From Butyrivibrio sp. (lineage in GTDB: Bacteria > Bacillota > Clostridia > Lachnospirales > Lachnospiraceae), in assembly GCF_017433805.1 (NCBI RefSeq), contig NZ_JAFRGN010000048.1, positions 1 through 52,285 of the forward strand: DNA of 52,285 nucleotides, in the 5' to 3' direction. The translations under genes were made by a program, and so were the position numbers. Of the stretch, positions 17,227-43,481 are shown piece by piece; positions within the stretch are counted from its first letter, which is position 1; each line of letters begins with the position of its first letter. Under the pieces are notes generated by a model that saw only the letters and a list, made by a program, of their open reading frames with translations, did not search any database and had not been told where the DNA came from.

Positions 17227-17357
17227 CACGCAATATAAAAGAAAGATAATGAATGTCATGAGGAGCTTGCTCATCTAAGACTTTCATTATCTTTCTTTTA
17301 ATTTATGCGGCGAATGCCGCGTAAATGAGAAATGCGTAGCATTTCGAATATTGCGTG
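17227..17357. repeat. Branched palindromic element: one outer stem enclosing three hairpins
   Basis: CACGCAATAT (17227-17236) and ATATTGCGTG (17348-17357) form a perfect 10-bp outer stem. Inside are three perfect hairpins: AAAAGAAAGATAATGAA with its complement (17237-17253 and 17283-17299), GCGGC-GAAT-GCCGC (17307-17320) and GAAATGC-GTA-GCATTTC (17329-17345). The first follows the outer stem with no gap. ACGCAATATA recurs as a direct repeat inside the adjoining array (17443-17452). No transposase or other gene lies inside. It could be a non-autonomous palindromic element or a structured RNA; I do not recognise it. Confidence 0.75.
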
Positions 17358-17359
17358 CC

Positions 17360-17573
17360 TGCATCTATTTTGCGCATTTAGTCCATTATCGATGCCCATT
17401 TTAGCCCTTTTCTTTTATCAAAAGCATCGAAAATTGATTTCTACGCAATATAGATGCAATTTCTATTTCTATGTTGGTCCAAACTGCATCTATTATGACC
17501 AGTTAAATGATAATCGATGCAAAACTGATTTTGCTTGATCAAGATGCATGACATCACTGAATTCATATCATGC
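17360..17573. repeat. Array of alternating GCATC/GATGC motifs, about 31-bp step
   Basis: Six motif copies alternate strictly in orientation: GCATC at 17361, 17424 and 17486; GATGC at 17391, 17453 and 17516. Steps are 30, 33, 29, 33 and 30 bases. The neighbouring inverted copies pair beyond the core: TCGATGC (17389-17395) with GCATCGA (17424-17430), and ATAGATGCA (17450-17458) with TGCATCTAT (17485-17493), so the flanking base changes in a compensatory way. TGCATC (17360) and GATGCA (17516) can close the whole. Segments between the stems are 23, 19 and 22 bases. A weaker pair GCATGA/TCATGC (17546-17573) follows. With the element before it, this fills the 454-base gap between tRNA-Lys and the next gene; I see no coding region here. 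Confidence 0.75.
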
Positions 17574-17615
17574 ACATCTTCCCAATAAAAGAGAATAGTT
17601 TTAAGATATTAGCAT

Positions 17616-18164
17616 ATGCAGAAAGTAGAACTTATAAGAAGTAATAGAAAATCAATAGCGATAGAAGTGACCAAAGATCTAAGAATCATAGTCAGGGCGC
17701 CGCTTAGGATGTCTGAGAGGGAAATTAACCGTTTTATTGGTGAGAAGGCAGACTGGATTGAAAAGAGCCTTAAAAAGATGAAAGAAAGAGCTCAAAACGA
17801 ATCCAAAAGTACCCCATTATCTGAGCAGGATATAAAGCTGCTTGTTACCAAGGCAAAAAGGATCCTTCCTCCTAAGGTTGAGAGATATTCTAAGATACTC
17901 GGTGTTAGCTATAACAGAATTACCATTAGAATGCAAAAGAGCCGATGGGGAAGCTGTTCAGCTCAGGGAAATCTTAATTTCAATTGCCTTCTGATGCGAG
18001 CTCCGGATGAAATTATAGATTATGTTGTTGTACATGAACTATGTCACCGCAAGGAAATGAATCATTCAGACAGATTCTGGGCACTTGTAGAAAGTATACT
18101 TCCCGATTACAAGGAAAGACGTAAATGGCTTAAGGATCACGGAAGTGAATTAATGGTCAAATAA
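17616..18164 (+). CDS. YgjP/DUF45-type zinc metallopeptidase-like protein
   Basis: A 182-residue cytoplasmic protein of the M48-like YgjP family. The zinc-binding motif is VVHELCHRKEMNHSDRFW (HExxH written as HELCH, with the third ligand His in the following MNHSD). The upstream signature SRWGSCSAQGNLNFN is also typical. Residues 1-80 form the usual N-terminal beta domain (SIAIEVTKDLRIIVRAP). Family length is about 160-240. The ATG at 17616 has no convincing ribosome site, which suggests low expression. It stands alone between the motif array and a terminator shared with the suf operon. The cellular substrate is unknown. Confidence 0.85.
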   Translation: MQKVELIRSNRKSIAIEVTKDLRIIVRAPLRMSEREINRFIGEKADWIEKSLKKMKERAQNESKSTPLSEQDIKLLVTKAKRILPPKVERYSKILGVSYNRITIRMQKSRWGSCSAQGNLNFNCLLMRAPDEIIDYVVVHELCHRKEMNHSDRFWALVESILPDYKERRKWLKDHGSELMVK

Positions 18165-18172
18165 TTATAATA

Positions 18173-18210
18173 AAAACCTCAGAACACTCTATTTGAATGT
18201 TCTGAGGTTT
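18173..18210. terminator. Bidirectional terminator
   Basis: AAACCTCAGAACA and TGTTCTGAGGTTT pair perfectly around an 11-base loop, with A residues before and T residues after. It can end both the YgjP-like gene (+) and the suf operon (-). Confidence 0.88.
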
Positions 18211-18224
18211 ATTTCTTCTATATA

Positions 18225-18674
18225 TTATTTATTCTCCTGAGCCTTTTCTGGGTGCTCAAGCATCTCCTGCATTGTGTGCCAGCCAAGTACTGCACATTTA
18301 ACTCTTGCAGGCATATGAGCTACATCCTGAAGAGCTGCTGCCTCATCAAGAGCCTCAATGCTCTCTTCGTCTGTAATCTCGCCCTTGATCATTCCCATGA
18401 AAGTTCCAGCAAGCTTGATTGCCTCTTCCTTGTTCTTGCCAAGAATCTGGTCAACCATCATATCTACTGATGCCTGTGAAATAGCGCATCCACTTCCATC
18501 GTAGGAAGCTGCCTTAATAACATCTCCATCAAGCTTCATATAAAGAGTAATGTCATCTCCACAGCTTGGATTAACACCTCTAAGTACCAGATCTGCATCC
18601 TCAATCTTACCTCTGTTAACAGGGTGAAGATTGTGTTCATTAACTATCTCGCGATATAACTGCTTAAGCTCCAT
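18225..18674 (-). CDS. sufU: SufU iron-sulfur assembly sulfur-transfer protein
   Basis: A zinc protein that takes sulfur from the SufS persulfide for SufBCD. The start is the ATG at 18674, overlapping the sufS stop by 11 bases; it gives MELKQLYREIVNEHNLHPVN, the normal SufU start, and 150 residues. The conserved ligands are present: Cys in NPSCGDD, Cys in DGSGCAISQAS and Cys in ARVKCAVLGW. The overlap with sufS points to coupled, stoichiometric synthesis. Last gene of the suf operon, followed by a bidirectional terminator. Confidence 0.93.
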   Translation of the reverse strand: MELKQLYREIVNEHNLHPVNRGKIEDADLVLRGVNPSCGDDITLYMKLDGDVIKAASYDGSGCAISQASVDMMVDQILGKNKEEAIKLAGTFMGMIKGEITDEESIEALDEAAALQDVAHMPARVKCAVLGWHTMQEMLEHPEKAQENK

Positions 18675-19884
18675 ATCCCATAACCTCTCTAACCTTGGAC
18701 AGCTTATCAAGGAAAACTGCTACTTCCTCTTCAGTATTATAGAAGTATACACTGGCTCTTGCGGTAGAACCTGCTCCTATAAACTGCATAAGAGGCTGTG
18801 CACAGTGGTGTCCGGCTCTGATACATACATGATCATCATTAAGTACTGATGACATGTCATGAGGATGAACACCTTCCATTGTAAATGTCACAATTCCGCA
18901 ATGCTTTCTGTAATCTTTGGAACCATATACCTTGATGTATGGAAGCTTAGCAAGTCCTTCCATGATCAGCTTGGTAAGTTTAAGTTCCTGCTCTTCTATT
19001 TTATCAAATCCTACTGATTTAATATACTCTATTGCTGCAGCAAGTCCTACTGCATCTCCAGCGTTTACTGTTCCAGCTTCGAACTTATGAGGAATCTCAG
19101 CATAAGTAGCATCAGTTCTGGTAACATATTCGATCATCTCGCCGCCTGTTAAAAATGGCTGCATCTTCTCAAGAAGCTCGTATCTTCCATAAAGAGCTCC
19201 AATTCCCATAGGTGCAAGCATCTTGTGACCTGAAAGAGCAAAGAAGTCTGCTCCTATAGCCTGAACATCAACTGACATGTGTGGTGTTGACTGAGCACCA
19301 TCTACTACCATGATAGCTCCCTTAGAATGAGCATATTCTGCAATCTCTTTAACCGGATTAGTAATACCAAATACGTTAGAAACATGTCCAACTGCTACAA
19401 TCTTGGTCTTATCTGTAATCTTGGACTCATATTCCTCTTTAGTAATAACACCCTCTTCATCAGGCTCAAGGAAAACAAGCTTAGCACCATTCTTCTTGGC
19501 AACCATCTGCCATGGAAGAAGATTACTGTGATGCTCCATTACTGTAACAACGATCTCATCGCCTTCGTGAACATTTTCCATACCATAGCTATATGCTACA
19601 AGGTTAAGAGATTCTGTAGTATTTCTGGTAAAAATGATCTCTTCTGCCCTGCTGGCACCGATAAAATCGGCAACAGTACTTCTGGCATTCTCATAGGCTT
19701 CTGTAGCACCCATACTCCAGTCGTATAAGCCTCTTAAAGGATTAGCATTGGTTGTCTTATAGAAGTTTGTTACTGCATCCAGTACCTGTCTTGGTCTCTG
19801 AGATGTAGCTGCGTTATCAAAATATACATAATCGCCAGAATTCAAGATGTCGAAATCCTTGCGAAAATCCTGCAAACTACCCAT
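18664..19884 (-). CDS. sufS: Cysteine desulfurase SufS
   Basis: A PLP enzyme that converts cysteine to alanine and holds the sulfur as a persulfide for Fe-S cluster assembly. It has 406 residues, normal for group II desulfurases. The PLP lysine is Lys221 in SGHKMLAPMG, and the catalytic Cys361 lies in RAGHHCAQPL. The motif VVDGAQSTPH carries the PLP-contacting Asp. CAGGAG precedes the ATG at 19884. It lies between sufD (16 bases away) and sufU (overlapping). Confidence 0.96.
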   Translation of the reverse strand: MGSLQDFRKDFDILNSGDYVYFDNAATSQRPRQVLDAVTNFYKTTNANPLRGLYDWSMGATEAYENARSTVADFIGASRAEEIIFTRNTTESLNLVAYSYGMENVHEGDEIVVTVMEHHSNLLPWQMVAKKNGAKLVFLEPDEEGVITKEEYESKITDKTKIVAVGHVSNVFGITNPVKEIAEYAHSKGAIMVVDGAQSTPHMSVDVQAIGADFFALSGHKMLAPMGIGALYGRYELLEKMQPFLTGGEMIEYVTRTDATYAEIPHKFEAGTVNAGDAVGLAAAIEYIKSVGFDKIEEQELKLTKLIMEGLAKLPYIKVYGSKDYRKHCGIVTFTMEGVHPHDMSSVLNDDHVCIRAGHHCAQPLMQFIGAGSTARASVYFYNTEEEVAVFLDKLSKVREVMGYGA

Positions 19885-19899
19885 GGGTCTTTCTCCTGA

Positions 19900-21075
19900 T
19901 CAAATAATATTCTGAATATAGTGCTGTGCTCTCTGCGCCAGTGCTTCATCTGGAATGAGTCTCGCTACGCTATCAAGTCTTGCCTTGACCATAATACGCT
20001 TAGCCTCTTCCTCATCAATTCCTCTTGTCTGCATATAGAAAAGAAGGTCCTCACCGAGCTGACCAATTGTAGCTCCGTGGCGTCCATCCATATCCTCTTC
20101 CTGGCAAAGAATAATAGGCATTGTACGGTTGATTACATCGTCGCCAAGAAGAAGTACATCTTCCTGCTCATCGCCAACTGAACCAGCACTACCATTCTTG
20201 AAATCAATAGTAAATCTAAGTGTCTTCTGTGCTTCATCCATGAGGACACCCTTGAACTGCATAAGCGCGTTTGTCTTCTTGCCTCTGTGATCTGCCACAA
20301 AGTTAATATCCATGTGGTGATCCTCGCGGCTAAGATAAGCAACATCACTAGTAAAATCAGCCTCTTTAGCTGTGAGATTCATATAGCTTCCGGTCCATAC
20401 CTTCTGTGCACCGAGCTCTAATGTAACCAGCCTGATGGCGCCCTTTTCATAGCAAGCACCGCCAAGGTCATCGAAATGAAGATAGCCATTTCCAAGCATC
20501 TGAGTCTTAACAAGGATAACCCTTGCTCCCTCCTCAGCCAGAACTCTGGTACTTACGCCAAGGAAGCCTGCTGCCTCTTTATCATCCTCAGAAGTGTAAT
20601 CCATGATCACTGTAATCTCTGAATTCTTCTTGGCATGAATAACCTGAGAAGCAAGACGGCCATTTCCATTCTTCATATCAAAACGAAGAACGATAGGCTC
20701 TTTTACAACTGTGCCCTCTTCTACAGTGTAAACATCACATTTAGCACCTGTAGAAATAAATAGCTTATCTACATCAACGCCCATTCCAGTTCTAACTGCC
20801 TGTTCGTTATCTCTGGCAGAAGTATCGCCATTAGGCTCACCTGGAACGCCTGTTGATACCAAAATCTTATCTTTATTTGCTCTGAAAACCTCACCAGCTT
20901 CATCAAAAGAAACACCGCTCTTAAGGCTAACACCCTGTGGAACAGCTGCTGGTACTGGACTTTCTACTGAATCTATTGTTATATCTGAAGCATCGAGTGT
21001 ACTGTCGTTTACTCTAAGGAAATTGTAGGTATAAACTGGCAGTACATTAACCTTCATATTTAAATCTGTATTCAT
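19900..21075 (-). CDS. sufD: SufD, Fe-S scaffold subunit
   Basis: Partner of SufB and SufC in the cytoplasmic SufBCD scaffold. It has 391 residues. The beta-helix core is visible (VVKEPIVLRFDMKNGNGRL, GARVILVKTQMLGNG), and the C-terminal helical domain contains RHGATIGQLGEDLLFYMQTRGIDEEEAKRIMVKA, the SufBD family signature. The likely ligand His corresponds to the one in GRHGA. Shorter than SufB, as usual. It starts 50 bases after the sufB stop. Confidence 0.92.
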   Translation of the reverse strand: MNTDLNMKVNVLPVYTYNFLRVNDSTLDASDITIDSVESPVPAAVPQGVSLKSGVSFDEAGEVFRANKDKILVSTGVPGEPNGDTSARDNEQAVRTGMGVDVDKLFISTGAKCDVYTVEEGTVVKEPIVLRFDMKNGNGRLASQVIHAKKNSEITVIMDYTSEDDKEAAGFLGVSTRVLAEEGARVILVKTQMLGNGYLHFDDLGGACYEKGAIRLVTLELGAQKVWTGSYMNLTAKEADFTSDVAYLSREDHHMDINFVADHRGKKTNALMQFKGVLMDEAQKTLRFTIDFKNGSAGSVGDEQEDVLLLGDDVINRTMPIILCQEEDMDGRHGATIGQLGEDLLFYMQTRGIDEEEAKRIMVKARLDSVARLIPDEALAQRAQHYIQNII

Positions 21076-21125
21076 GTTATGCTCCCAAATCTTTTTCTAA
21101 GAAACGTCCTAAAGTAATACGCTTA

Positions 21126-22535
21126 TTAATGTCCGCTCATCTCAAGCTTGATCAGATTGTTCATCTCAACCGCATACTCAAGAGGAAGCTCTTTGGAAAC
21201 CGGATTAGCAAAGCCGCTTACGATCATGGCCTTGGCATCCTCTTCACTGATACCACGTGACATGAGATAGAAAATAGCTTCGTCGCTGATTCTACCAATC
21301 TTAGCCTCGTGTCCTACATCTGCATCGTTAGTACGAATATCCATAGCTGGAACTGTATCTGCTCTTGAAATGCTATCAAGCATAAGTGAATCACAGGAAA
21401 CAGATGCCTTAGCCTTCTTGGCTGTCTTCTGGATTGTTACGCTACTCCTGTAAGTACCGATTCCGCCGTCCTTGGAAATAGACTTAGTGGAAATAACAGA
21501 AGAAGTTCTCTCACCAATGTGAACAACCTTGGCTCCTGTATCAAGATTCTGTCCCTTACCAGCAAAAGTAATTCCTGTAAATTCCATCTTGGAATTATCA
21601 CCCTTGAGGATAGTCATAGGATAAAGATATGAAGTGTGAGAACCAAAAGATCCTGATACCCACTCCATAATTCCATTCTCCTCAACTACTGCTCTCTTGG
21701 TGTTAAGGTTGTACATATTCTTGGACCAGTTCTCAATTGTTGAGTAACGAAGTCTCGCACCCTTACCAACAAAAAGCTCTACGCAGCCAGCATGAAGGTT
21801 GGCAACGTTATATTTAGGTGCAGAACATCCCTCGATGAAGTGAAGATCTGCACCCTCATCTACAATAATAAGTGTATGCTCGAACTGTCCTGCTCCAGCT
21901 GCATTAAGTCTGAAGTATGACTGAAGAGGAATGTCAACCTTGACTCCCTTAGGAACATATACAAAAGAGCCACCTGACCAAACTGCGCCATGAAGAGCTG
22001 CAAACTTATGATCTGTAGGAGGAACAAGCTTCATGAAGTGTTCCTTGATCATGTCTGCATATTCACCGTGAAGTGCACTCTCAAGGTCTGTGTAGATTAC
22101 GCCCTGGGCAGCAACCTCATCCTTAACATTGTGGTAAACAAGCTCTGAATCGTACTGAGCACCAACACCAGCCAGAGATTCTCTCTCAGCCTGTGGGATT
22201 CCAAGCTTCTCAAAGGTATTCTTGATATCCTCTGGAACATCCTCCCACTTGCCCTTCATATCTGACTTGTGTCTAACATAAGAAGAAATTCTGTCCATAT
22301 CGAGGCCTTCGATACTTGGTCCCCAATTTGGCATCTTGATCTCTTCGTATAACTCAAGACATTTAAGTCTGAAATCTCGCATCCATTCAGGGTCATTCTT
22401 TTCCTCAGAAACCTTGAGAACTGTTTCTCTAGTAAGACCCTCGGCCATACGATAGAAGTCTTTTTCTGACTCCACATCTTTAAAATCATATAAACTGCGG
22501 TCGATATCGGCCACAATCTGTTTATTATCGCTCAT
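21126..22535 (-). CDS. sufB: SufB, Fe-S scaffold subunit
   Basis: Main scaffold subunit of the SufBCD complex, 469 residues. Recognisable motifs are LHGAVWSGGSFVYVPKGVKVDIPLQSYFR in the middle, the conserved Cys in SVSCDSLMLDSISRADTVP, and DVGHEAKIGRISDEAIFYLMSRGISEEDAKAMIVSGF at the C-terminus. The Glu/Cys pair used in cluster assembly appears intact. It starts 11 bases after the sufC stop with GAGGG in front of the ATG. Its Cys-rich N-terminal CxxCxxC, found in some lineages, is absent, as in most Firmicutes. Confidence 0.95.
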   Translation of the reverse strand: MSDNKQIVADIDRSLYDFKDVESEKDFYRMAEGLTRETVLKVSEEKNDPEWMRDFRLKCLELYEEIKMPNWGPSIEGLDMDRISSYVRHKSDMKGKWEDVPEDIKNTFEKLGIPQAERESLAGVGAQYDSELVYHNVKDEVAAQGVIYTDLESALHGEYADMIKEHFMKLVPPTDHKFAALHGAVWSGGSFVYVPKGVKVDIPLQSYFRLNAAGAGQFEHTLIIVDEGADLHFIEGCSAPKYNVANLHAGCVELFVGKGARLRYSTIENWSKNMYNLNTKRAVVEENGIMEWVSGSFGSHTSYLYPMTILKGDNSKMEFTGITFAGKGQNLDTGAKVVHIGERTSSVISTKSISKDGGIGTYRSSVTIQKTAKKAKASVSCDSLMLDSISRADTVPAMDIRTNDADVGHEAKIGRISDEAIFYLMSRGISEEDAKAMIVSGFANPVSKELPLEYAVEMNNLIKLEMSGH

Positions 22536-22546
22536 ATCAACCCTCT

Positions 22547-23293
22547 TTATACAAATCTCTCAAAACCATTTGCATTGATCTCATCAACAAGTGAACCATC
22601 GCCAGTGTGAACGATGTTACCCTTAACGAGTACGTGTGTGTAATCTACGTGAAGAGATTCAAGAATCTTAGTGCTGTGTGTAATGATAAGAAGAGCTCCA
22701 TCCTTCTTTTTCTGGTACTCTTCGATACCCTTGGAAACTGTACGAACAGCGTCTACGTCAAGACCTGAGTCAGTCTCATCAAGGATTGCAAACTTAGGAT
22801 TAAGCATAAGAAGCTGAAGGATTTCAGCCTTCTTTTTCTCACCTCCAGAGAATCCTACATTGAGATCTCTGTCTGCATATGACTCATCCATTGAAAGAAT
22901 CTCCATTGCAGCCTTAAGTGACTTCTGGAATGCAAGAAGCTTAACAGGAGCTCCTGTCTGTGCATGATATGCATTTCTAATGAAGCTGCTAAGGGAAATT
23001 CCTGGAACCTCATATGGATTCTGGAAAGAAAGGAACATTCCAGCCTTAGCTCTCTTATCAGAAGAAGCTGCTGTAATATCCTGTCCATCAAAAGTGATGC
23101 TTCCCTCAGTTACGTTGTAATGTGGATTACCCATAAGCGTAAAACCAAGTGTAGACTTGCCTGCTCCGTTAGGTCCCATGAGTACGTGAGTCTCTCCTGG
23201 CTTGATATCCAAATTGATGTTATGAAGTATAGGAAGTTCATTATCTATAGATACTGATAAATCCTTAACCTGTAATAAAGACTGTTCTGACAT
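22547..23293 (-). CDS. sufC: SufC, ATPase of the SufBCD complex
   Basis: An ABC-type ATPase without membrane partners that drives cluster assembly on SufBD. I chose the ATG at 23293 (MSEQSLLQVKDLSVSI) because GAAAGGAA lies nine bases upstream; an earlier in-frame ATG at 23311 includes that ribosome site. It has 248 residues. Walker A is GPNGAGKSTL, the signature is NVGFSGGEKKKAEILQL, Walker B is KFAILDETDSGLD, and the switch His is in LLIITHSTKIL. First gene of the operon, behind the promoter and operator at 23330-23379. Confidence 0.95.
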   Translation of the reverse strand: MSEQSLLQVKDLSVSIDNELPILHNINLDIKPGETHVLMGPNGAGKSTLGFTLMGNPHYNVTEGSITFDGQDITAASSDKRAKAGMFLSFQNPYEVPGISLSSFIRNAYHAQTGAPVKLLAFQKSLKAAMEILSMDESYADRDLNVGFSGGEKKKAEILQLLMLNPKFAILDETDSGLDVDAVRTVSKGIEEYQKKKDGALLIITHSTKILESLHVDYTHVLVKGNIVHTGDGSLVDEINANGFERFV

Positions 23294-23329
23294 TGTAATA
23301 GTTCCTTTCATATATACGCAAAACTATTT

Positions 23330-23346
23330 CCTACTAACTTAGTAGG
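23330..23346. promoter_or_regulatory. 17-bp palindromic operator of the suf operon
   Basis: CCTACTAACTTAGTAGG is a perfect inverted repeat (8-1-8). It starts four bases downstream of the -10 box of the suf promoter, where a repressor would block transcription. Position and form suit an Rrf2-family (IscR/SufR-like) iron-sulfur regulator. No such gene is in the window, so the regulator is inferred. Confidence 0.7.
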
Positions 23347-23350
23347 ATTT

Positions 23351-23379
23351 ATATTAACACCAGCAAAACACTATGTCAA
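23351..23379 (-). promoter_or_regulatory. Sigma-A promoter of sufCBDSU
   Basis: On the minus strand TTGACA (23379-23374) and TAATAT (23356-23351) are separated by 17 bases. The -35 is perfect. It lies about 60 bases upstream of sufC and faces away from the tRNA-Gly promoter. Confidence 0.85.
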
Positions 23380-23412
23380 ATGACAAACAAACATAGTTTA
23401 TCACAAAAGACC

Positions 23413-23441
23413 TTGACATACTATATAAAACTCGGTAGAAT
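23413..23441 (+). promoter_or_regulatory. Promoter of tRNA-Gly
   Basis: TTGACA (23413-23418), 17 bases, TAGAAT (23436-23441), 20 bases upstream of the mature tRNA. This is a strong sigma-A match. Confidence 0.85.
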
Positions 23442-23460
23442 ACATACTTGTCAGCACCAT

Positions 23461-23531
23461 GCGGGTGTAGTTCAATGGTAGAACACCAGCCTTCCAAGCT
23501 GGATACGTGGGTTCGATTCCCATCACCCGCT
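23461..23531 (+). tRNA. tRNA-Gly (TCC anticodon)
   Basis: A 71-base cloverleaf. The acceptor arms GCGGGTG and CACCCGC pair perfectly, followed by discriminator T. The anticodon stem CCAGC/GCTGG encloses CTTCCAA, giving anticodon TCC at 23493-23495. The T loop GTTCGATTC is standard. CCA is not encoded. A T-run at 23540-23547 probably ends the transcript. Confidence 0.97.
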
Positions 23532-23557
23532 TCTGCTTATTTTTTTTGCCTTTTTCT

Positions 23558-23578
23558 AAATGCAAATGATTTGCATTT
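23558..23578. promoter_or_regulatory. Fur-family-type operator upstream of the metal exporter
   Basis: AAATGCAAAT and ATTTGCATTT form a perfect 10-1-10 palindrome. Its core TGCAAATGATTTGCA has the 7-1-7 form typical of Fur, Zur and PerR boxes. A further TGCATTT half follows. It lies 46 bases before the exporter ATG, and a Fur-family gene follows the exporter, so autoregulation by that protein is the simplest reading (inference). Confidence 0.7.
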
Positions 23579-23624
23579 GCATTTAAACAGGTATAACATA
23601 TAGATACTCAAAAAGGAGATCACC

Positions 23625-24521
23625 ATGGAACTTATTTTAGACGTAGTAATTGACGCAGTAATAGATTCGCTCAAGATACTTCCATTTTTATTTGTCACAT
23701 ATCTGATAATGGAATACTTAGAGCACAAGACAGCTGAATTCACTTCAGGTGTCGTAGAAAAAACTGAACATTTCGGACCTCTTTGGGGCGGACTTATCGG
23801 AGTTTTCCCGCAGTGTGGTTTCTCTGCAGCAGCATCTAACCTGTATGCCGGCAGAGTAATAACACTTGGAACTCTCATTGCTATCTATCTGTCCACATCA
23901 GACGAAATGGTTCCTCTCTTTATTTCTGAGCAGGTTCCAGTAATTACAATGGTTCAGATCCTTGCAATCAAAGCTCTTATTGGTATCATCGCAGGTTTTG
24001 TCATCGACTTTATTGTTCATGCTTATCACAAGTCACGTGGCAGATCTTTAAATGATCCTGTTAATATAGAAGCTCTCTGTGAAAAAGAGCATTGCCACTG
24101 CGACGATGATGAAGACGCCGGCTTTATCGGAATCGTTAAATCTGCTTTGGTACATACAATTCACATTTTCTTATTCGTACTGGTTCTTTCACTTGTCTTT
24201 AACCTTGTGATCGAGCTCATCGGTGCAGATCGTGTAGCTATGCTCCTCAAGACAAGTCCGGTTATCAGCCACATCCTCGCCGGATTAGTAGGCCTCATTC
24301 CTAACTGTGCTGCCTCTGTTATCATCACTGAGCTCTATCTTGACCAGATGATCACTCTCGGTACAATGATGTCAGGCCTTTTAGTGGGCGCAGGTATTGG
24401 ACTTCTGGTTCTCTTTAGAGTTAATGATAACAAGAAAGAGAATATCAATATCGCTCTTTTACTGTTCTTTATTGGAACTGTTGTTGGACTTTTAATTGAT
24501 ATACTTGGAATCACTATCTAA
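23625..24521 (+). CDS. ArsP_2-like multi-pass heavy-metal exporter
   Basis: A 298-residue membrane protein with about eight to ten hydrophobic segments, split into two similar halves. Each half has a Pro/Cys loop: GVFPQCGFSAAASNLYAGRVITLGTLIA (about 58-85) and GLIPNCAASVIITELYLDQMITLGTMMSG (about 225-253). This internal repeat is characteristic of the putative 10TM heavy-metal exporter family, often labelled arsenic efflux or putative manganese transporter. Between the halves is a cytoplasmic loop CEKEHCHCDDDED rich in His, Cys and Asp, a likely metal-binding site. GGAG precedes the ATG. It is followed 22 bases later by a Fur-family gene, so regulation by a divalent metal is likely; the substrate is not decided by sequence. 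Confidence 0.8.
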   Translation: MELILDVVIDAVIDSLKILPFLFVTYLIMEYLEHKTAEFTSGVVEKTEHFGPLWGGLIGVFPQCGFSAAASNLYAGRVITLGTLIAIYLSTSDEMVPLFISEQVPVITMVQILAIKALIGIIAGFVIDFIVHAYHKSRGRSLNDPVNIEALCEKEHCHCDDDEDAGFIGIVKSALVHTIHIFLFVLVLSLVFNLVIELIGADRVAMLLKTSPVISHILAGLVGLIPNCAASVIITELYLDQMITLGTMMSGLLVGAGIGLLVLFRVNDNKKENINIALLLFFIGTVVGLLIDILGITI

Positions 24522-24543
24522 TAGACATTTATGAGGATTTATT

Positions 24544-24993: not shown

Positions 24994-25008
24994 TATAGAT
25001 AATATGAA

Positions 25009-25112: not shown

Positions 25113-25421
25113 TTAGTTGTTTGAAGCCTCTGATGTAGCTTCTGAAGCAGCCTCAACTGCCTCCTCTACTGATGAAGCGTCTGATGCAGCCTCAACAGCC
25201 TCTTCTACTGATGAAGCATCTGATGCAGCCTCAACAGCCTCTTCTACTGATGATGCCTCTGAAGCAGCCTCAACAGCCTCTTCTACAACCTCTGTAGCCT
25301 CAACTGTAGCTTCTACAGATGTCTCCTCTACTGCTGTCTCTACTGTAGCCTCTCCGCAACCAGCAAGTACTGCTGCAGAAAGTGTTAATGCTGAAAGTAA
25401 TGTTACGATATTCTTCTTCAT
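25113..25421 (-). CDS. Small repetitive acidic lipoprotein
   Basis: A 102-residue secreted lipoprotein. The signal peptide MKKNIVTLLSALTLSAAVLAGC ends in the lipobox LAGC, so Cys22 would be acylated and anchored on the outer face of the membrane. The rest contains only a few residue types: Ala, Glu, Val, Ser and Thr. Residues 46-97 are four copies of a 13-residue unit VEEAVEAAS(D/E)A(S/T)S, probably an extended or helical spacer. GAGGAG lies upstream of the ATG. I do not recognise a family, and function is unknown. The nearly identical DNA of the repeats makes copy-number change likely. Confidence 0.8.
   Translation of the reverse strand: MKKNIVTLLSALTLSAAVLAGCGEATVETAVEETSVEATVEATEVVEEAVEAASEASSVEEAVEAASDASSVEEAVEAASDASSVEEAVEAASEATSEASNN
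25131..25286 (-). repeat. Four tandem 39-bp coding repeats
   Basis: Four in-frame 39-bp units inside the small lipoprotein gene, nearly identical at the DNA level (units two and three differ at only a few positions). They encode VEEAVEAASDASS-type modules. Confidence 0.85.
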
Positions 25422-36758: not shown

Positions 36759-38036
36759 TTTTATTATTGCTCTTGTTCCCTTACCCATTTCAGATTCATA
36801 GGTAAGTTCCCCTCCAGATATACGCGCAATTCTCTCCATAACATTTTTTACACCAACATGAAGCTTTTGCCTGGCATTTGGAGATGGATCATATACAAAT
36901 CCCGGTCCGTTGTCTTCAACAATGACCTCTACATGGTCATCTTTCTTTCGTGTGATTATTTTTACTATACCCTGTCCATCTTCATTTTTTCTTACACCGT
37001 AATTTACTGCATTTTCCACAAGCGGCTGAAGTGTGAGGGTAGGCATCTTAAAATCAGTTGTTTCTATGTCATACTCAATATCAAGGTCATCTCCAAAACG
37101 TAATTTCTGAAGTTCTAAATACCCCTTTACATGCTCCAGTTCTTTTTCAAATTCTATTGGCGCATCATTCGAAAGTGAATCCACATTATAACGAAGATAA
37201 CTAATGAAATAATCCAGAGCCTCTTCTGCTTTTTTTGAATCCTTTGCACATAGATATTTTATAGTAGTAAGACTGTTATACAAAAAATGGGGCTGAATCT
37301 GTGCTAAAAGAATGTTTATCTTTAGCTGGGCATTTTCTGCCTCCTTTTTGTAATACTTCTCGTTCTGATCGCTAATAATGCAAATCAGCATGAAAAAAGT
37401 AGCCAAAACTGAGCTCAAGACAATAAAGTGAACTCCAAGAAGCCTTGTTTGTATTATCATGGCCATCATTGGCAGTATCGAATATACCAGAAACGCCTTG
37501 ATCTGCTTGGAAGTGTATTTCTTTCTCTTCCAAAAGATAATGAATAAGTCAATTATCATTATCATTATTGTTGGCACTACTAGGACGGCAAACATCGGTC
37601 CTCTGGAATATACATTGTTATCGTCAACCTCATAGATACTGCCTGTAAAAATATTACTGATAAGTAGTCCCTGATAACACAGCCACAGGATAATTGTAGC
37701 TATAAGCACCTTATTCTTTATCCAGTTTTCTTCACCTGTTTGAAATAGTAGAAATGCAGTGATCAGAACTGTCAGAACCGAGGCAAAAAAAGCCTGTCCA
37801 AACAGCACCACTTTAGAAAGAACTACCCATCCATAACTTCCAACATTGGAATGAGTCAGCTCCCTTATCAGAATACACAGAGTATATAATTCCAGAACAG
37901 AAAACAAACTATAAAAGAAATATCTTGTCTTTTTTTCTATATTTCTGCTAAACAGAACCTGAACTAATCCCACTAAAGAAACGATAAAACCTGTTGATAC
38001 CAGAATGAGATTTGTTGTCCTGATTACATCGGTCAT
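36747..38036 (-). CDS. LytS/YesM-like sensor histidine kinase
   Basis: 429 residues. Seven hydrophobic segments between about 8 and 225 form a membrane sensor (7TM-like arrangement) with no large external domain. A short coiled coil (YYKKEAENAQLKINILLAQI) leads into the His_kinase domain. The phosphorylated His is in QIQPHFLYNSLTTIKYLC, the N-box is LQPLVENAVNYGVRK, and the G-box is VEDNGPGF. The order is typical of LytS/YesM kinases, whose partners usually carry LytTR or AraC outputs; here the nearest receiver is the XRE fusion convergent with it. AGGAGG precedes the ATG at 38036. Confidence 0.88.
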   Translation of the reverse strand: MTDVIRTTNLILVSTGFIVSLVGLVQVLFSRNIEKKTRYFFYSLFSVLELYTLCILIRELTHSNVGSYGWVVLSKVVLFGQAFFASVLTVLITAFLLFQTGEENWIKNKVLIATIILWLCYQGLLISNIFTGSIYEVDDNNVYSRGPMFAVLVVPTIMIMIIDLFIIFWKRKKYTSKQIKAFLVYSILPMMAMIIQTRLLGVHFIVLSSVLATFFMLICIISDQNEKYYKKEAENAQLKINILLAQIQPHFLYNSLTTIKYLCAKDSKKAEEALDYFISYLRYNVDSLSNDAPIEFEKELEHVKGYLELQKLRFGDDLDIEYDIETTDFKMPTLTLQPLVENAVNYGVRKNEDGQGIVKIITRKKDDHVEVIVEDNGPGFVYDPSPNARQKLHVGVKNVMERIARISGGELTYESEMGKGTRAIIKLYK

Positions 38037-38055
38037 TAATTGGCCTCCTATAAAA

Positions 38056-38088
38056 AACTCCTACCCGGCACAAGACCAGATAGGAGTT
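38056..38088 (-). terminator. Terminator between the second two-component operon and the LytS-like kinase
   Basis: On the minus strand AACTCCTA and TAGGAGTT pair around a 17-base loop and run into TTTT. It is nine bases beyond the regulator stop. The ribosome site of the next gene begins shortly after, so read-through would feed that gene. Confidence 0.78.
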
Positions 38089-38096
38089 ATCAGCAA

Positions 38097-38786
38097 TTAA
38101 ACCTTAAAGCGATATCCAACGCCCCAGATTGTCTCGATGTACTGTGGATTGGAGGTGTCATATTCGATCTTCTCACGGATCTTCTTGATATGAACTGTTA
38201 CAGTTGCAATATCACCGATGGAATCCATGTTCCAGATCTTTCTAAAGAGCTCTTCCTTGGTGAATACGTGATTAGGATTCTCAGCAAGGAATGTAAGAAG
38301 ATCAAACTCCTTAGTTGTGAAACTCTTCTCCTCATCATCTACATATACTCTTCTGGCTGTCTTGTCGATCTTGAGTCCTCTGATCTCAACGAAATCATTG
38401 TTCTCGTGGCCTGATCCAACAAGTCTGGAATATCTAGCCATGTGTGCCTTAACACGGGCAACAAGCTCTGATGGGCTAAATGGCTTGGTGATGTAATCAT
38501 CTGCTCCAAGGCCAAGGCCTCTGATTTTATCGATATCATCTTTCTTGGCTGAAACCATGAGAATCGGCACATCCTTCTTTTCTCTGATGTGTTTACAAAC
38601 CTCAAATCCATCCATTCCTGGAAGCATAAGATCAAGAATCACAAGATCAAACTCTTCGGCAAGAGCAGTCTCAAGACCTGCATCTCCAGTATTCTCAATC
38701 TTTACCTCAAAATCACTAAGCTCAAGATAATCCTTTTCAAGATCAGCAATGGCCTCTTCATCCTCAACAATAAGAATTCTACTCAT
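38097..38786 (-). CDS. OmpR-family response regulator (VanR-like)
   Basis: 229 residues. The receiver has the acidic residues EDEE (8-11), phosphoacceptor Asp in LVILDLMLPGMDG, Ser in LMVSAKK and Lys in YITKPFS. The C-terminal winged helix is complete (FTTKEFDLLTFLAENPNHVFT, ATVTVHIKKIREKIE, WGVGYRFKV). It starts the operon; the kinase lies on the upstream side (38811), so the order on the minus strand is kinase, then regulator, with a 24-base gap. Target genes are unknown. Confidence 0.93.
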   Translation of the reverse strand: MSRILIVEDEEAIADLEKDYLELSDFEVKIENTGDAGLETALAEEFDLVILDLMLPGMDGFEVCKHIREKKDVPILMVSAKKDDIDKIRGLGLGADDYITKPFSPSELVARVKAHMARYSRLVGSGHENNDFVEIRGLKIDKTARRVYVDDEEKSFTTKEFDLLTFLAENPNHVFTKEELFRKIWNMDSIGDIATVTVHIKKIREKIEYDTSNPQYIETIWGVGYRFKV

Positions 38787-38810
38787 ACACGTATTTCACC
38801 TTTCTTTTTA

Positions 38811-40328
38811 TTATGGCGTTTCATGATCTACTGTAACTGTTTCCTGATTATCCGCATACTCAACATATTTACGTAATACGAAGTGCATGCAGGTTCCTTC
38901 CCCTTCATGGCTTGTAGCCCATATATAGCCGCCATGATCTTCGATTATCTTCTTAACAATAGATAATCCAATTCCACTTCCTCCCTGCTTGGAGTTTCTG
39001 GAAGCATCCGTTCTATAGAATCTGTCGAAAATGTTCGGGATATCTCTTTGAGCAATTCCCTTACCATTATCCTCCAACTCTACTCTGATGGAATCAATCT
39101 CATCCAAAATCCTGATATCGATCTGACCTGTTCCGTCATCTCTATCAAGATATTTGACACTGTTACTAACTACGTTGTTGACCACTCGCTTGATCTGCTC
39201 TGGGTCAGCTACTATCTGTGTATCCGGAGTTGTAAGGTTGGAATAATTGAGCTTGATGGATTTACTCTCAAGGTCAGCTCCAATCTCCTCGATACAGTCT
39301 CCAAAATATTCACCAACATTAAGTCTGATGAAATTATAAGGAATTCTATTATTATCAATACTGGAGTACAAGGTCAGCTCGTTAATAAGGTTGTTCATAT
39401 CATTGGCCTTATTATTGATGATCCTGATGTACTTCATCTGCTTCTCAGGATTATCAGCAACTCCTTCCAGAAGTCCCTGCGAATAACCCTTGATAGCTGT
39501 GATAGGCGTTTTTAGGTCATGAGAGATATTACTGATAAGCTCTTTATTCTGCTTCTCTCGCTCAATCTTTTCCTCGGCTGATTCCTTAAGCCTCAGTCTC
39601 ATGTCCTCGTAATTACGATACATGGCGCCAATCTCGCCCTTTTCCGTAATGTCCGTAGGAAGAATGTAATCGAAATTACCATCCTGAATGTGCTGCATCG
39701 CTATGTTAAGCTCATCTATTGGCTTAAAGAAGCTGTTGCCAATCCACATTGTCAGAAGAATACTTGTGACCAGAAGGATCAGAATAATTGCCACTCCCAT
39801 ATAGATAAACATTGAAGCTGTGAGAGCTGTCCTGATACCAGATATAATATACAGACTTCCCTGATCACCTGTGGAAAATCTGAAATCGATCTGTTTGACT
39901 AAATGTTTGGACGCAGTGTAATAGATACCTTTTACATCTGTTCCGTAGCCTGGCAGTTCATCAACTACATCCATGGCACGATCCATATTTGCCACATAAT
40001 AAACATCCTGTCCCTTCTTGACCAGAAGAAAAGAATATTTAGATGCAATCTTGCTGTCTACACTTTCCAGGAAGTCTTTATCTTCCAGAATAAATGGGTT
40101 AACAATTAGTGCAAGTGCTATATCATGTGTAACTTCATCTGTCATGTCTGAAAAAGCTTCACTTGGATCTGACACCATACTATAATCAAATCCATTCGAA
40201 AAATCGTCAAGCTTCTGTTCATAGACTAGATATCTGCCTATTGCAAAAAATGTACCGATTGCCAAGATAATAGGAATAATAACTATCGCCACTGACGTGA
40301 TTAAGAGTTTTGTACGAAAACGCATCAT
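38811..40328 (-). CDS. Sensor histidine kinase with HAMP domain
   Basis: 505 residues. A first membrane helix at about 8-30, an extracytoplasmic sensor of about 140 residues (YEQKLDDFSNGFDYSMV to YGTDVKGIYYTASKHLVKQID), a second helix at about 172-195, then a HAMP linker (SFFKPIDELNIAMQHIQDGNFDY). The H-box is ISNISHDLKTPITAIKGYSQG; N-box RVVNNVVSNSVKYLDR; G-boxes ELEDNGKGIAQRDIPN and GGSGIGLSIVKKI. GGGGGT precedes two adjacent ATG codons. It is transcribed before its regulator. Confidence 0.93.
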   Translation of the reverse strand: MMRFRTKLLITSVAIVIIPIILAIGTFFAIGRYLVYEQKLDDFSNGFDYSMVSDPSEAFSDMTDEVTHDIALALIVNPFILEDKDFLESVDSKIASKYSFLLVKKGQDVYYVANMDRAMDVVDELPGYGTDVKGIYYTASKHLVKQIDFRFSTGDQGSLYIISGIRTALTASMFIYMGVAIILILLVTSILLTMWIGNSFFKPIDELNIAMQHIQDGNFDYILPTDITEKGEIGAMYRNYEDMRLRLKESAEEKIEREKQNKELISNISHDLKTPITAIKGYSQGLLEGVADNPEKQMKYIRIINNKANDMNNLINELTLYSSIDNNRIPYNFIRLNVGEYFGDCIEEIGADLESKSIKLNYSNLTTPDTQIVADPEQIKRVVNNVVSNSVKYLDRDDGTGQIDIRILDEIDSIRVELEDNGKGIAQRDIPNIFDRFYRTDASRNSKQGGSGIGLSIVKKIIEDHGGYIWATSHEGEGTCMHFVLRKYVEYADNQETVTVDHETP

Positions 40329-40369
40329 GCACCCCCGGCAACCTATATCTATGCACCTAACAAAATTAT

Positions 40370-40389
40370 ATCATAAAAACGTTTATGAT
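40370..40389 (-). terminator. Weak terminator-like hairpin after GH43
   Basis: ATCATAAA-AACG-TTTATGAT forms a perfect 8-bp AT-rich stem in the 114-base gap between GH43 and the kinase gene. On the minus strand ATAATTTTG follows, so the T-run is poor. Confidence 0.4.
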
Positions 40390-40442
40390 TGTTAATATCC
40401 TATTCCCTATTTAGTAAGATATTATTTATCTTTATGAAAATT

Positions 40443-41375
40443 TCACTTGAAATTTTCCTTAATTCGATCATATTCCTCATCTGTTATAGGCAAAACTGTT
40501 CCATGTTTGAAGCCGTAAGGGAAGCTGAATTCCTTGTCAGAGCGCACAAAACGGCCTGTTGAGATGTCTTTTGCCACGAAAGGAACGTATCCCTGCTTGG
40601 ATTTCTCACATCCATAAAAATCGAGCATCAGGCACCAGCTGCCATCTGGAAGCTTATAACAGGTAGGAGCTTCATACTGACCAGCCTCTAATTTGTCCAT
40701 TTCCTCATCAAATGCAGGCATTCTCTCATATTCTCCAGTAAGAGAAGTTCCTCTTTCAAGAATAATGTGCTCAGGATTGAAATCGCTCTTTACAAATCTG
40801 TAGTAATAACCATCCTCGTAAACAATGTTTGAATCAATGATTCCTGTGTCACACTTCTTGCAGAGCATCTTTGGGGCTGTAAAATTTATAAAGTCTGCAG
40901 TCTTAGCATAGAAAATAGCCATCTCGTTGGCAGACTGAGCTGGATATCTAGATGACCAGTGAACCATGTAGTCTCCAGCCTCTTCATCATAGATAATATC
41001 TGGCGCCCAGGCACAGCCATAGTCTTCATCAACGACCTTGACCAGCTCCTGCTCAGACCAGTTTACAAGATCCTTGGACTCCCACTTGGATAAGAATTTA
41101 CTTCCCTGTCTGTTAACGATATTCCAATTACTCTGATATTTTGTAGCAAAGTTATTGGCAAGCGAAAGGTCAGTAGCAAGGATGACAAAAGAATTATCTT
41201 TTTTCCTTGTGATAGTGAAATCTCTTACTCCCTTTTCTCCGAGCTTACTCTCAAGTATAGGATTTCCTCCATTTACCTGCTCCCAGTTAAAGCCGTCTTT
41301 TGATACACCAAAATAAACCTGCTCTCCATCAGGTGTAAATTTCTCTTTGAAATGTACAAATAAAAATGCTCCCAT
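40443..41375 (-). CDS. Glycoside hydrolase family 43-like protein
   Basis: 310 residues, with no signal peptide, so a cytoplasmic enzyme. The five-bladed propeller motifs include YFGVSKDGFNWEQV, ATDLSLANN, CAWAPDIIYDEEAGDYMVHWS (the WAPD motif with the modulating Asp) and QYEAPTCYKLPDGSW (the acid Glu in an EAPxxYK form of EGPxxYK). The catalytic base Asp is probably the one in GVRDFTI. Members act on arabinose- or xylose-containing side chains of plant oligosaccharides, which suits a rumen or gut fibre degrader. No transporter or sugar regulator is next to it. GGGAGG precedes the ATG. Confidence 0.82.
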   Translation of the reverse strand: MGAFLFVHFKEKFTPDGEQVYFGVSKDGFNWEQVNGGNPILESKLGEKGVRDFTITRKKDNSFVILATDLSLANNFATKYQSNWNIVNRQGSKFLSKWESKDLVNWSEQELVKVVDEDYGCAWAPDIIYDEEAGDYMVHWSSRYPAQSANEMAIFYAKTADFINFTAPKMLCKKCDTGIIDSNIVYEDGYYYRFVKSDFNPEHIILERGTSLTGEYERMPAFDEEMDKLEAGQYEAPTCYKLPDGSWCLMLDFYGCEKSKQGYVPFVAKDISTGRFVRSDKEFSFPYGFKHGTVLPITDEEYDRIKENFK

Positions 41376-41488
41376 AATAGCCTCCCTTAGATATAGTTTT
41401 GATTTATCTAAAATATTATACTATGTTTCAAACAGCATTTATACTAGTAAAATCAAGGAAAGTTCACTAATATTTTACAGCTTGATTA

Positions 41489-41517
41489 TTGATTAGCGTA
41501 TTTTTCTCTGTTAAACT
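41489..41517 (+). promoter_or_regulatory. Candidate promoter of pgi
   Basis: TTGATT (41489-41494), 17 bases, TAAACT (41512-41517), about 60 bases before the pgi start codon. The -10 match is modest. Confidence 0.4.
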
Positions 41518-41575
41518 TTTATCTGGATAACAAAAAACGTTTTCCTTACGTATTCCTATAGGAGGAAATTATACA

Positions 41576-43156
41576 ATGATCAATTGGAATAATCTTGACA
41601 CACTTAAATCTTACAATGATCTTAAGAGCACAGCTTCTGTTAATCTTGTAGAAGCTATGACTGGCGTAAGTGGCGCTGAGAGAGTTAAAAAGTACTCAGT
41701 ACCTATGGCTGCAGGCCTTAATTTCAACTACGCTGCAAAAGAGGTTGATGATAAAATCTTATCTGCTCTTGCTGCACTTGCTGATGAGGCACAGCTTGCT
41801 GAGAAGTATGAAGCTCTCTATAACGGCGAAGTTATAAATACTGGTGAGAAGAGAATGGTTCTCCACCAGCTCACTCGTGGTCAGCTTGGCGAGAACGTTA
41901 TGGCTGATGGTGTTAACAAGCGTGAGTTCTATGTTAAAGAGCAGAAGAGAATTGCTGATTTTGCTAACAAAGTTCACTCAGGTGAGATTGCAAACGCTAA
42001 GGGTGAGAAGTTCACAACAGTAGTTCAGATCGGTATCGGCGGATCAGACCTTGGTCCAAGAGCTATGTATCTTGCTCTTGAGAACTGGGCTAAGAGAACT
42101 GGCAACTTCAAGATGGAAGCTAAGTTCATCAGTAACGTAGATCCAGACGACGCTTCTGCAGTTCTTAATTCTGTAGATGTTGCTCATTCAATCTTTATTC
42201 TTGTATCTAAGTCAGGTACAACACTTGAGACACTTACAAACGAGTCATTCGTTACAGATGCTCTCAAGAAGGCAGGTCTTGATGCCAGCAAGCACATGAT
42301 CGCTGTTACATCTGAGACATCTCCTCTTGCTAAGAGTGATAACTACCTTGAAGCTTTCTTCATGGATGATTATATCGGCGGACGTTATTCTTCAACATCA
42401 GGCGTTGGTGGAGCAGTTCTTTCACTTGCATTTGGTCCTGACGTATTCGCTCAGTTCCTTGATGGCGCTGCAGAAGAAGACAAGCTTGCAACTAACAAGG
42501 ATCTCCTCAAGAACCCAGCTATGCTTGATGCTATGATCGGTGTTTATGAGAGAAACGTACTTGGCTATGACAGCACAGCAGTACTTCCTTACTCACAGGG
42601 ACTTAGCCGTTTCCCAGCACACCTTCAGCAGCTTGATATGGAGTCAAATGGTAAGAGCGTTAACCGCTTCGGTGATCCTATCAACTATGTAACAGGACCT
42701 GTTATCTTTGGTGAGCCAGGAACAAACGGACAGCATTCCTTCTCTCAGCTCCTTCACCAGGGAACAGATATTATTCCTCTTCAGTTCATCGGCTTCAAGA
42801 ACAGCCAGCTTCAGAACGATGTTAACATCCAGGACAGCACAAGCCAGCAGAAGCTCTGCGCTAACGTAGCTGCTCAGATCGTTGCATTCGCTTGTGGTAA
42901 GAAGGATGAGAACGCTAACAAGAACTTCAAGGGTGGTCGTCCATCAAGCATCATCATTGGCGATGAGCTTAATCCTAAGTCACTTGGTGCTCTCCTTGCT
43001 CACTTCGAGAACAAGGTAATGTTCCAGGGCTTTGTATGGAACATCAACTCCTTTGACCAGGAAGGTGTTCAGCTTGGTAAGGTTCTTGCCAAGAAGGTTC
43101 TCGCTCACGAGACAGATGGTGCACTTGCAGAGTATAGTAAGTTACTTGGTATTTAA
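41576..43156 (+). CDS. pgi: Glucose-6-phosphate isomerase
   Basis: Interconverts glucose-6-phosphate and fructose-6-phosphate in glycolysis. It has 526 residues, longer than the roughly 450-residue form of many Firmicutes. Motifs include QIGIGGSDLGPRAMYLAL, FILVSKSGTTLETLTNE, GGRYSSTSGVGGAVLSLAFG and GEPGTNGQHSFSQLLHQGTD. The ribosome site AGGAGG is strong. Codons are strongly biased to a small set (CTT, GAG, AAG, GGT/GGC), a sign of very high expression compared with its neighbours. A Rho-independent terminator follows. It stands alone. Confidence 0.95.
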   Translation: MINWNNLDTLKSYNDLKSTASVNLVEAMTGVSGAERVKKYSVPMAAGLNFNYAAKEVDDKILSALAALADEAQLAEKYEALYNGEVINTGEKRMVLHQLTRGQLGENVMADGVNKREFYVKEQKRIADFANKVHSGEIANAKGEKFTTVVQIGIGGSDLGPRAMYLALENWAKRTGNFKMEAKFISNVDPDDASAVLNSVDVAHSIFILVSKSGTTLETLTNESFVTDALKKAGLDASKHMIAVTSETSPLAKSDNYLEAFFMDDYIGGRYSSTSGVGGAVLSLAFGPDVFAQFLDGAAEEDKLATNKDLLKNPAMLDAMIGVYERNVLGYDSTAVLPYSQGLSRFPAHLQQLDMESNGKSVNRFGDPINYVTGPVIFGEPGTNGQHSFSQLLHQGTDIIPLQFIGFKNSQLQNDVNIQDSTSQQKLCANVAAQIVAFACGKKDENANKNFKGGRPSSIIIGDELNPKSLGALLAHFENKVMFQGFVWNINSFDQEGVQLGKVLAKKVLAHETDGALAEYSKLLGI

Positions 43157-43201
43157 AGACGCTCCTCCTGACGAGGAATGTTCATAGTTTAATAAAGCTT
43201 G

Positions 43202-43231
43202 GGAGGAGAGCCCATGGCCCTCCTCCTTTTT
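43202..43231 (+). terminator. Terminator of pgi
   Basis: GGAGGAG pairs with CTCCTCC, with an inner GCC/GGC pair, followed by TTTTT. Located 45 bases after the pgi stop. Confidence 0.85.
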
Positions 43232-43242
43232 GATTATCATTT

Positions 43243-43481
43243 TTTACCGCAAACACCAGAAGCTGCATTTTACGGTAAAGTTTTCTAATGCTAATTTTTC
43301 ACTTATTTTACCGTATTTGCACGAAATTGAACTATGCGGTAAAGCCCACTCAGGTCTCCGCTGCCTTTCTGTACCATTTCCTTTACCGCCATTTCGGGTT
43401 TGCAATAAATGCGGTAAAGACGTCTAGTTTCAATCGTTCACTTTCTTTACCGTAAAGCCAGAAAACGCGCCATGCGGTAAT
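43243..43481. repeat. Array of alternating TTTACCG/CGGTAAA motifs, about 31-bp step
   Basis: Eight copies alternate strictly in orientation: TTTACCG at 43243, 43307, 43382 and 43446; CGGTAAA at 43273, 43337, 43412 and (as CGGTAAT) 43475. Steps are 30, 34, 30, 45, 30, 34 and 29 bases. Neighbouring copies form three extended stems: TACGGTAAA/TTTACCGTA (43271-43315, loop 27), GCGGTAAAG/CTTTACCGC (43336-43389, loop 36) and GCGGTAAAGA/TCTTTACCGT (43411-43453, loop 23, one G-T pair). TTACCGC (43244) and GCGGTAA (43474) can close the whole. The four linkers are 20, 20, 21 and 20 bases. The halves 43243-43343 and 43382-43481 look like an old duplication. No convincing gene lies in the 431 bases from pgi to rubrerythrin; a small hairpin GCGTT/AACGC sits at 43485-43498. 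Confidence 0.8.

Follow-up and report, generated by a model that had tools for sequence, protein, structure and literature searches.

Arrays A and B in a Butyrivibrio contig

The window is the 52,285-nucleotide contig NZ_JAFRGN010000048.1 (positions 1 to 52,285, forward strand) of a Butyrivibrio sp. (family Lachnospiraceae; assembly GCF_017433805.1), listed here as contig C46 of the 3.45-Mb draft genome G000, the own genome. Its gpi-like gene has its best matches in Butyrivibrio records, with identities of up to 94%. It carries two arrays, A and B (Table 1), in which a short motif recurs in strictly alternating orientation. They look like members of an undescribed system of gut and rumen bacteria comprising many array families, each with its own motif and its own small nuclease-like gene. 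In array A, GATGC lies at 17361 (−), 17391 (+), 17424 (−), 17453 (+), 17486 (−) and 17516 (+), with steps of 30, 33, 29, 33 and 30 bp. This intact part spans 17361–17520 and is followed, by eye, by two decayed sites up to about 17577; several GATGC copies elsewhere have eight intact sites, against six here. Array B has its CGGTAA sites between 43244 and 43480, at steps of 29, 35, 29, 46, 29, 35 and 28 bp, the fourth of its seven linkers being longer by 11 bp. Scored by the 7-mer CGGTAAA it has seven sites (steps 30, 34, 30, 45, 30 and 34 bp; units of 64, 75 and 64 bp). The initial annotation, made from the letters of the window alone, had described strict alternation at both positions and unrelated motifs. 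Both descriptions were confirmed: the motifs (GATGC and CGGTAA) are unrelated, 40 dinucleotide shuffles of the window gave no 7-mer chain of four or more sites and no 6-mer chain of more than four, and a strict scanner found two arrays in the window and none in five shuffles. Arrays A and B are real, and they are two among many. The annotation had also placed each array just after a Rho-independent terminator, which held in part: a terminator-like stem (17166–17206) precedes array A by about 155 bp, a weaker form of the claim, whereas ahead of array B there is an inverted repeat with a T run (43201–43231) seen by eye but not called by a simple terminator scan. Between the stem ahead of array A, which belongs to a tRNA-Lys, and the array itself lies a long AT-rich inverted repeat (17237–17299; arms of 17 bp by eye). 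Array A matched 135 phage records, the 20 best matches all beginning in the tRNA part of the query, and had no match in a plasmid collection.

Many motifs, one geometry

A motif-blind scanner, which detects exact k-mers alternating in orientation with a constant two-step period, was applied to about a fifth of the own genome and to samples of other genomes. Outside the window, strict arrays numbered seven in 385,068 bp of the own genome (contigs C64 and C57), nine in 240,000 bp of the congener G001, one each in G004 and G026 and three in a mixed congener sample of 155,486 bp; none appeared in five shuffles per set. Looser versions of the scanner, used earlier, gave a few matches in shuffles. 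No strict array was found in 100 kb each of E. coli K-12 and a Butyrivibrio plasmid, or in 60-kb samples of each of G019, G020 and G021. Rejected as arrays were the sole match in 120 kb of G024, a coding repeat; L205, peptide repeats in coding frame, dropped by name from the linkage count given below; and L276, a GC-rich tandem repeat that is not in the linkage set. A set of 80 gpi loci (550 kb) held one strict array, in Lachnospiraceae bacterium G11. It lies ahead of that bacterium's own gpi gene (L066:2544-2890) and has ten ACTAACA sites at steps of 25 and 27 bp, with an inner palindrome in each unit; no gene of the nuclease family described below was found in this 7.6-kb locus.

The annotation had proposed that geometry is kept while each locus has its own motif, a proposal that would have fallen had only the two loci turned up or had shuffled sequences held arrays as often. 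Neither occurred; arrays of many motifs are present in the sampled parts of the own genome and of several congeners, and the proposal is sharpened by a period that is quantised in helical turns. By BLASTN, array A has four further places in the own genome (E 2.5e-10 to 2.3e-4) and array B one. Four motif families were delimited there, GATGC with 15 aligned places, TTAGCCG with 8, TTTACCG with 3 (further arrays on C57 and C67) and CAACAGT with 2, counts that are lower bounds, since they come from about a fifth of the genome. None of 60 relatives has the TTAGCCG pair pattern, and the TTTACCG pattern is as frequent in them as its control, so that both motifs look species-specific. The CAACAGT triple is also present in G021 (two of 61 genomes), and CAACAG arrays occur in G004 and G036.

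The arrays are built from sites that face each other in pairs; TTTACCG pairs, found with a search pattern that permitted 26–48 bp, span 37 bp in 12 of 13 cases. Two-step periods fall at 51–54, 62–66, 73–75, 83–84 and 94 bp, that is, at 5, 6, 7, 8 and 9 helical turns. For 26 motif families R is 0.865 at 10.5 bp (p ~4e-9), for 32 families it is 0.854 (p ~7e-11, best fit 10.6), and 22 conservatively chosen families give p ~8e-8, all from a period list compiled by hand and including a few values from weak arrays (L327, L339). The L328 family (66 bp) departs by 3 bp from whole turns, and every other family by 1.5 bp or less. Moreover, ten deviant linkers depart from the rule of their own array by 9–13 or 20 bp (R = 0.79, p 0.002), and the fourth step, central among the eight sites, deviates by about one turn in array B, L013, L025, L191 and L230 and by two turns in L283. 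The 15 GATGC copies have partly conserved spacers, and their homology stops, by eye, near the outermost sites, some rows aligning only in part; they look like diverged copies of one element. Neighbours were called on both sides of 39 of 41 arrays (28 co-directional, 8 convergent and 3 divergent pairs), and 13 of the 41 were flagged as overlapping a predicted open reading frame (ORF), 'intergenic' placement depending here on a simple gene caller.

This geometry bears directly on the RNA and single-strand readings of the annotation, in which facing pairs are the stems, and linkers the loops or guides, of a multi-hairpin RNA, an element folding as single-stranded DNA or a guide-like RNA. Facing pairs can form short stems, and seven pairs of the window gave z-scores of −1.6 to −3.9 against shuffles, although any inverted pair would fold somewhat better than a shuffle. 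Selection for hairpins, however, would make the flanks of facing sites match better than those of distant sites, and they do not: flank identity is 0.351 and 0.355 for adjacent facing sites and 0.363 for distant ones (268, 222 and 923 comparisons, respectively, in 60 arrays), so that hairpin-specific pairing is not seen. Nor is helical quantisation of the period expected of an RNA, and copies lie in both orientations relative to genes (beside co-directional neighbours, GATGC copies point three one way and six the other). An Rfam scan of the window at the gathering threshold gave no match in the arrays, only two tRNAs and a piece of a group II intron. We find these readings unsupported and consider them very improbable. 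Nor do the arrays have the form of CRISPR arrays, as their motifs alternate in orientation and do not form direct repeats with unique spacers. Two other features of the window may be recorded here: the group II intron match (52145–52219, minus strand) is barely over the gathering score, and a 39-bp tandem repeat in four copies (25130–25286; 92% matches) overlaps predicted ORFs on both strands.

A nuclease-type gene family adjoins the arrays

The annotation had suggested looking for a co-occurring nuclease, and a PD-(D/E)XK-type gene family does adjoin arrays of many motifs. An all-against-all comparison of 212 genes flanking arrays revealed one family, six ORFs representing five genes, next to arrays with five different motifs in G000, G001 and G021; the only other cluster that large consists of ABC-transporter-like proteins. 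The family protein, of about 270 residues, has a variable N-terminal half (about 150 residues) and a C-terminal PD-(D/E)XK-type nuclease domain. It has no match above cut-off in Pfam and no credible match in NCBIfam. Its last 120 residues match the C-terminus of the PADLOC candidate defence protein PDC-S68 in all five proteins tested (E 1.6e-22 to 6.5e-28 with the best model) and, weakly, profiles of phage resolvases or endonucleases (best E 1.4e-5). In the N-terminal half, one of five proteins has a weak match to AbiGi (E 5.6e-5), beyond which nothing similar was found in the libraries searched. RSKSE, PDF and EHxG blocks are conserved, with E, D, E and H invariant in all 42 proteins; the third motif lacks its K at the customary position, and another K is kept in 41 of the 42. 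An AlphaFold model of a homologous domain from viral contigs (143 residues, 6 sequences, mean pLDDT 86.4) matches Bax1, a restriction-endonuclease-like protein, an R2 retrotransposon protein, Card1, XisH and TnsA, all of which we take to be PD-(D/E)XK proteins, at E values of 3.4e-3 to 0.13, none below 1e-3. A profile search of the PDB gave a single match (E 1.7). The active-site residues and profile matches, with fold matches that come from the homologous viral domain only, place the C-terminal half in the PD-(D/E)XK superfamily.

A search with a single member found matches in 35 of 61 genomes (34 of 37 within the genus, 1 of the other 24), as many as nine in one genome, and at E 1e-20 the family is present in 97 of 299 genomes of the Lachnospiraceae. 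Virus and plasmid collections yielded mostly short matches and homologous C-terminal domains borne by helicase-like proteins; one full-length relative, L351, lies on a 4.2-kb gut contig without an array.

The linkage of gene and array was measured in 42 nuclease loci, 30 of them the best of their genome and the other 12 taken from four genomes in which arrays or hits had been found before; the array of one locus, L305, was likewise known in advance. A strict array lies within 1.6 kb of the gene in 25 loci, giving 26 arrays against 1.58 expected (Poisson p 7e-23). The expectation derives from 15 arrays in 1,145,814 bp of 65 congener stretches, with L205 removed, and is somewhat low because the background counts all bases, coding ones included, yet not sixteenfold. 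The array is on the 5' side of the gene in 20 of 26 cases (p 0.009). Among the 17 loci without a strict array, a mismatch-tolerant scan found at least five sites in four (L311, L331, L339 and L327; shuffles of L327 reach four), and L324 and L329 have four sites of a motif that forms a strict array in their relative L325. Of six loci in other genera, L365 (52.5 bp) and L366 (94 bp, on both sides) have strict arrays, and L363 has 11 sites by the tolerant scan. Apart from contexts shared by ancestry, 35 loci have no recurring partner gene. Between the related loci L307 (2445-3038) and L343 (2832-3429) the segment from nuclease gene to array is inverted, as if recombined between inverted repeats.

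The N-terminal half tracks the motif

Arrays A and B are solo copies, and their presumed nucleases are encoded on other contigs (Table 1). The TTAGCCG-linked gene of the own genome, at C57, is broken. In G001, the four motifs found blind on contig C20 (ACGTC, CATGC, TTAGCC and TTACCTGCA) each have a nuclease locus with the same motif in that genome.

Table 1. Location of the two arrays of the window and of nuclease loci paired with arrays by motif
Feature	Location	Strand	Description
Array A	17359..17577	+	solo array, GATGC family; 6 intact sites and 2 decayed
Array B	43243..43481	+	solo array, TTTACCG/CGGTAAA family; 8 alternating sites
Presumed cognate nuclease, array A (GATGC)	G000:C29:94836-95561		outside the window; gene beside a GATGC array
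Presumed cognate nuclease, array B (TTTACCG)	G000:C67:29522-30334		outside the window; further TTTACCG arrays on C57 and C67
G001 matching locus, ACGTC	C20:431		
G001 matching locus, CATGC	C20:49488		decayed arrays
G001 matching locus, TTAGCC	C11:88522		
G001 matching locus, TTACCTGCA	C30:70196		

With motif labels assigned by hand, the N-terminal halves of proteins linked to the same motif are 0.63–0.97 identical (8 pairs) and those of proteins linked to different motifs at most 0.66 (398 pairs), whereas C-terminal identity between different-motif proteins reaches 0.86. In 99.7% of 861 protein pairs, conservation is higher in the C-terminal half. L311, L324 and L344 have a common neighbour gene (78–95% identical) and three different motifs; their C-terminal halves are 66–78% identical and their N-terminal halves 25–35%. 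The N-terminal half thus tracks the motif, with one exception given below, and the nuclease half does not; it is the N-terminal half that would set the motif. In L363 (780-1440), a locus of another genus, the array motif shifts in successive units from TGCCTAA to TGACTAA towards the gene. TGCCTAA is the motif of nuclease L318 and TGACTAA that of L316 and L317, and these nucleases are related; possibly, the L363 array is a snapshot of motif change.

A proposed specificity-switching nuclease and its binding platforms

The arrays, their phasing, their linkage to the gene, the co-variation of N-terminal half and motif, the active-site residues and the common ancestry of the GATGC solo copies are all read from sequence. 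From them we infer binding, autoregulation, cutting and the spreading of arrays by the nuclease, and consider it probable that the arrays are phased double-stranded DNA binding platforms of a specificity-switching nuclease, autoregulatory at its gene and dispersed elsewhere. The N-terminal half of the protein would read a short asymmetric motif and the C-terminal half would act as a PD-(D/E)XK nuclease. Facing pairs at whole turns would hold bound proteins in register along the DNA and allow them to assemble into one ordered complex. The array adjoining the gene, usually upstream, probably autoregulates it, by repressing or timing its expression, and the nuclease may copy or keep the solo arrays. 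Specificity would shift when the N-terminal half is replaced or diverges rapidly, the motif changing along with it. Because solo arrays are scattered in the same genome, with shared ancestry in the best-studied family, array and nuclease appear to behave as non-autonomous and autonomous parts. Tentatively, they may even constitute a genetic element of a categorically new kind, in which a PD-(D/E)XK nuclease family, encoded by single genes across the Lachnospiraceae, assembles on its own phased arrays, disperses them through the chromosome and gains new specificities by swapping its N-terminal half as the motif is rewritten.

Several results weigh against this interpretation. Even by the mismatch-tolerant scan, 13 of the 42 nuclease loci, and three of the six in other genera (L361, L362 and L364), have no convincing array. 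For the CAACAGT arrays, the nuclease hits of the own genome include none with the same motif; the nearest candidate (C17) has an array of another motif. The exception to the tracking of motifs is the pair L333 and L342, with N-terminal halves 0.66 identical and different motifs; in addition, the Mantel test is significant for both halves (r 0.42 and 0.34) and the Spearman test for neither. Motif labels and period list are hand-assigned, and the families are not fully independent. Thirteen solo arrays have no consistent target-site duplication and no empty site was seen in the one locus compared, neither of which fits a transposable element. At that locus a double array of G001 has a counterpart at the same place in the 93%-identical relative G031, the second array being about 88 bp shorter by alignment coordinates, and dispersal may therefore be old or rare. 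Beside this double array, L188:14619-14800 matches several other places of G031 at 73–82% identity, another dispersed repeat.

Possibly, although we think it unlikely, the family is a self-regulated defence or suicide nuclease directed at phages, its arrays serving as operators and genomic sinks that keep it inactive until infection and the scattered arrays being by-products or a selected buffer. The resemblance of the nuclease domain to PDC-S68 and the weak AbiGi match would suit such a role, as would the position of most arrays upstream of the gene and the lack of avoidance of single motif sites, and several divergent copies per genome with fast N-terminal change fit an arms race. Yet, among 35 loci, no partner gene recurs outside shared contexts, homologs in virus collections are few and mostly helicase-borne, and an operator role would hardly account for so many solo arrays. 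Arrays of several phased sites, dispersed between genes and in several eight-site cases with a central linker altered by whole turns, could also be expected of chromosome-organising sites that load or anchor a DNA-bridging protein, with a nuclease domain that rarely cuts or resolves DNA and a dispersal that serves chromosome structure. This seems improbable, since motifs and copy numbers vary between congeners, the active-site residues are invariant and, unlike a housekeeping organiser, the gene is missing, at the threshold applied, from most of the 299 Lachnospiraceae genomes.

Comparison with known systems

In type I restriction specificity subunits the variable recognition half is exchanged and the rest is kept. 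The array protein resembles them in having a variable, apparently exchanged recognition half and a conserved remainder, but it is one protein with its own nuclease domain and no recurrent partner gene among the 35 loci compared, its motifs lie in arrays and single sites are not avoided (counts outside arrays, z −1.2 to +2.5), and we do not class it as a restriction-modification system. Iterons and multi-site operators likewise place multiple sites in helical register beside the gene of a presumed binding protein; they differ from the arrays described here, which alternate strictly, have scattered solo copies and adjoin the gene of a nuclease-type protein. PDC-S68 has a homologous C-terminal nuclease domain, which relatives on viral contigs carry at the end of helicase-like proteins, but its profile covers about 1,200 residues, against the roughly 270 of the array protein, which has a different N-terminal half.

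The closest parallel may be drawn with REP/REPIN sequences and their RAYT (TnpA-REP) enzymes. Two papers describe these as short inverted doublets, extragenic and dispersed, in families that each have a single-gene enzyme with which they co-evolve (PMC3116915, PMC8266576). As in that account, the arrays consist of facing pairs found mostly between genes and in many places, with a single-gene enzyme for each family. An array family may be spread or kept by its own nuclease, as REPINs are believed to be by RAYTs. Unlike REPIN-RAYT, the linked gene is of PD-(D/E)XK type and does not encode a Y1/HUH transposase, and double-stranded sites alternate at whole turns; of the REPIN hairpin, short stems are possible, but no pairing extends beyond the motif, and the sites are helically phased. 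Membership of the REPIN-RAYT class was rejected, the Y1_Tnp genes of the own genome (C34 and C48; loci L208–L210) being without an alternating array. Around one of them (L208, G000:C34:58819-62154, with a RAYT-like Y1 gene at 1501-1836) there are several TGGACCACTAACCCCGTCC...GGTCCA palindromes, which look like the true REP family of this genome, unrelated to the arrays.

No title among the literature matches listed describes such arrays or the nuclease, although an earlier description beyond that scope (subscription papers, preprints) is possible. Alignment-based repeat finders would miss the arrays, because what the families share is geometry, not sequence. An unnamed nuclease-type family, present in roughly one in three of the Lachnospiraceae genomes sampled, is here linked to a repeat grammar. 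It provides a large set of natural pairings between recognition domain and motif, in which the array is a built-in readout of what the protein may recognise, and a case of protein specificity and a multi-copy DNA array changing together. If the nuclease spreads the arrays, this would be a mobile system with a chemistry unlike that of REPIN-RAYT; if it is defensive, it would be a nuclease controlled by DNA arrays.

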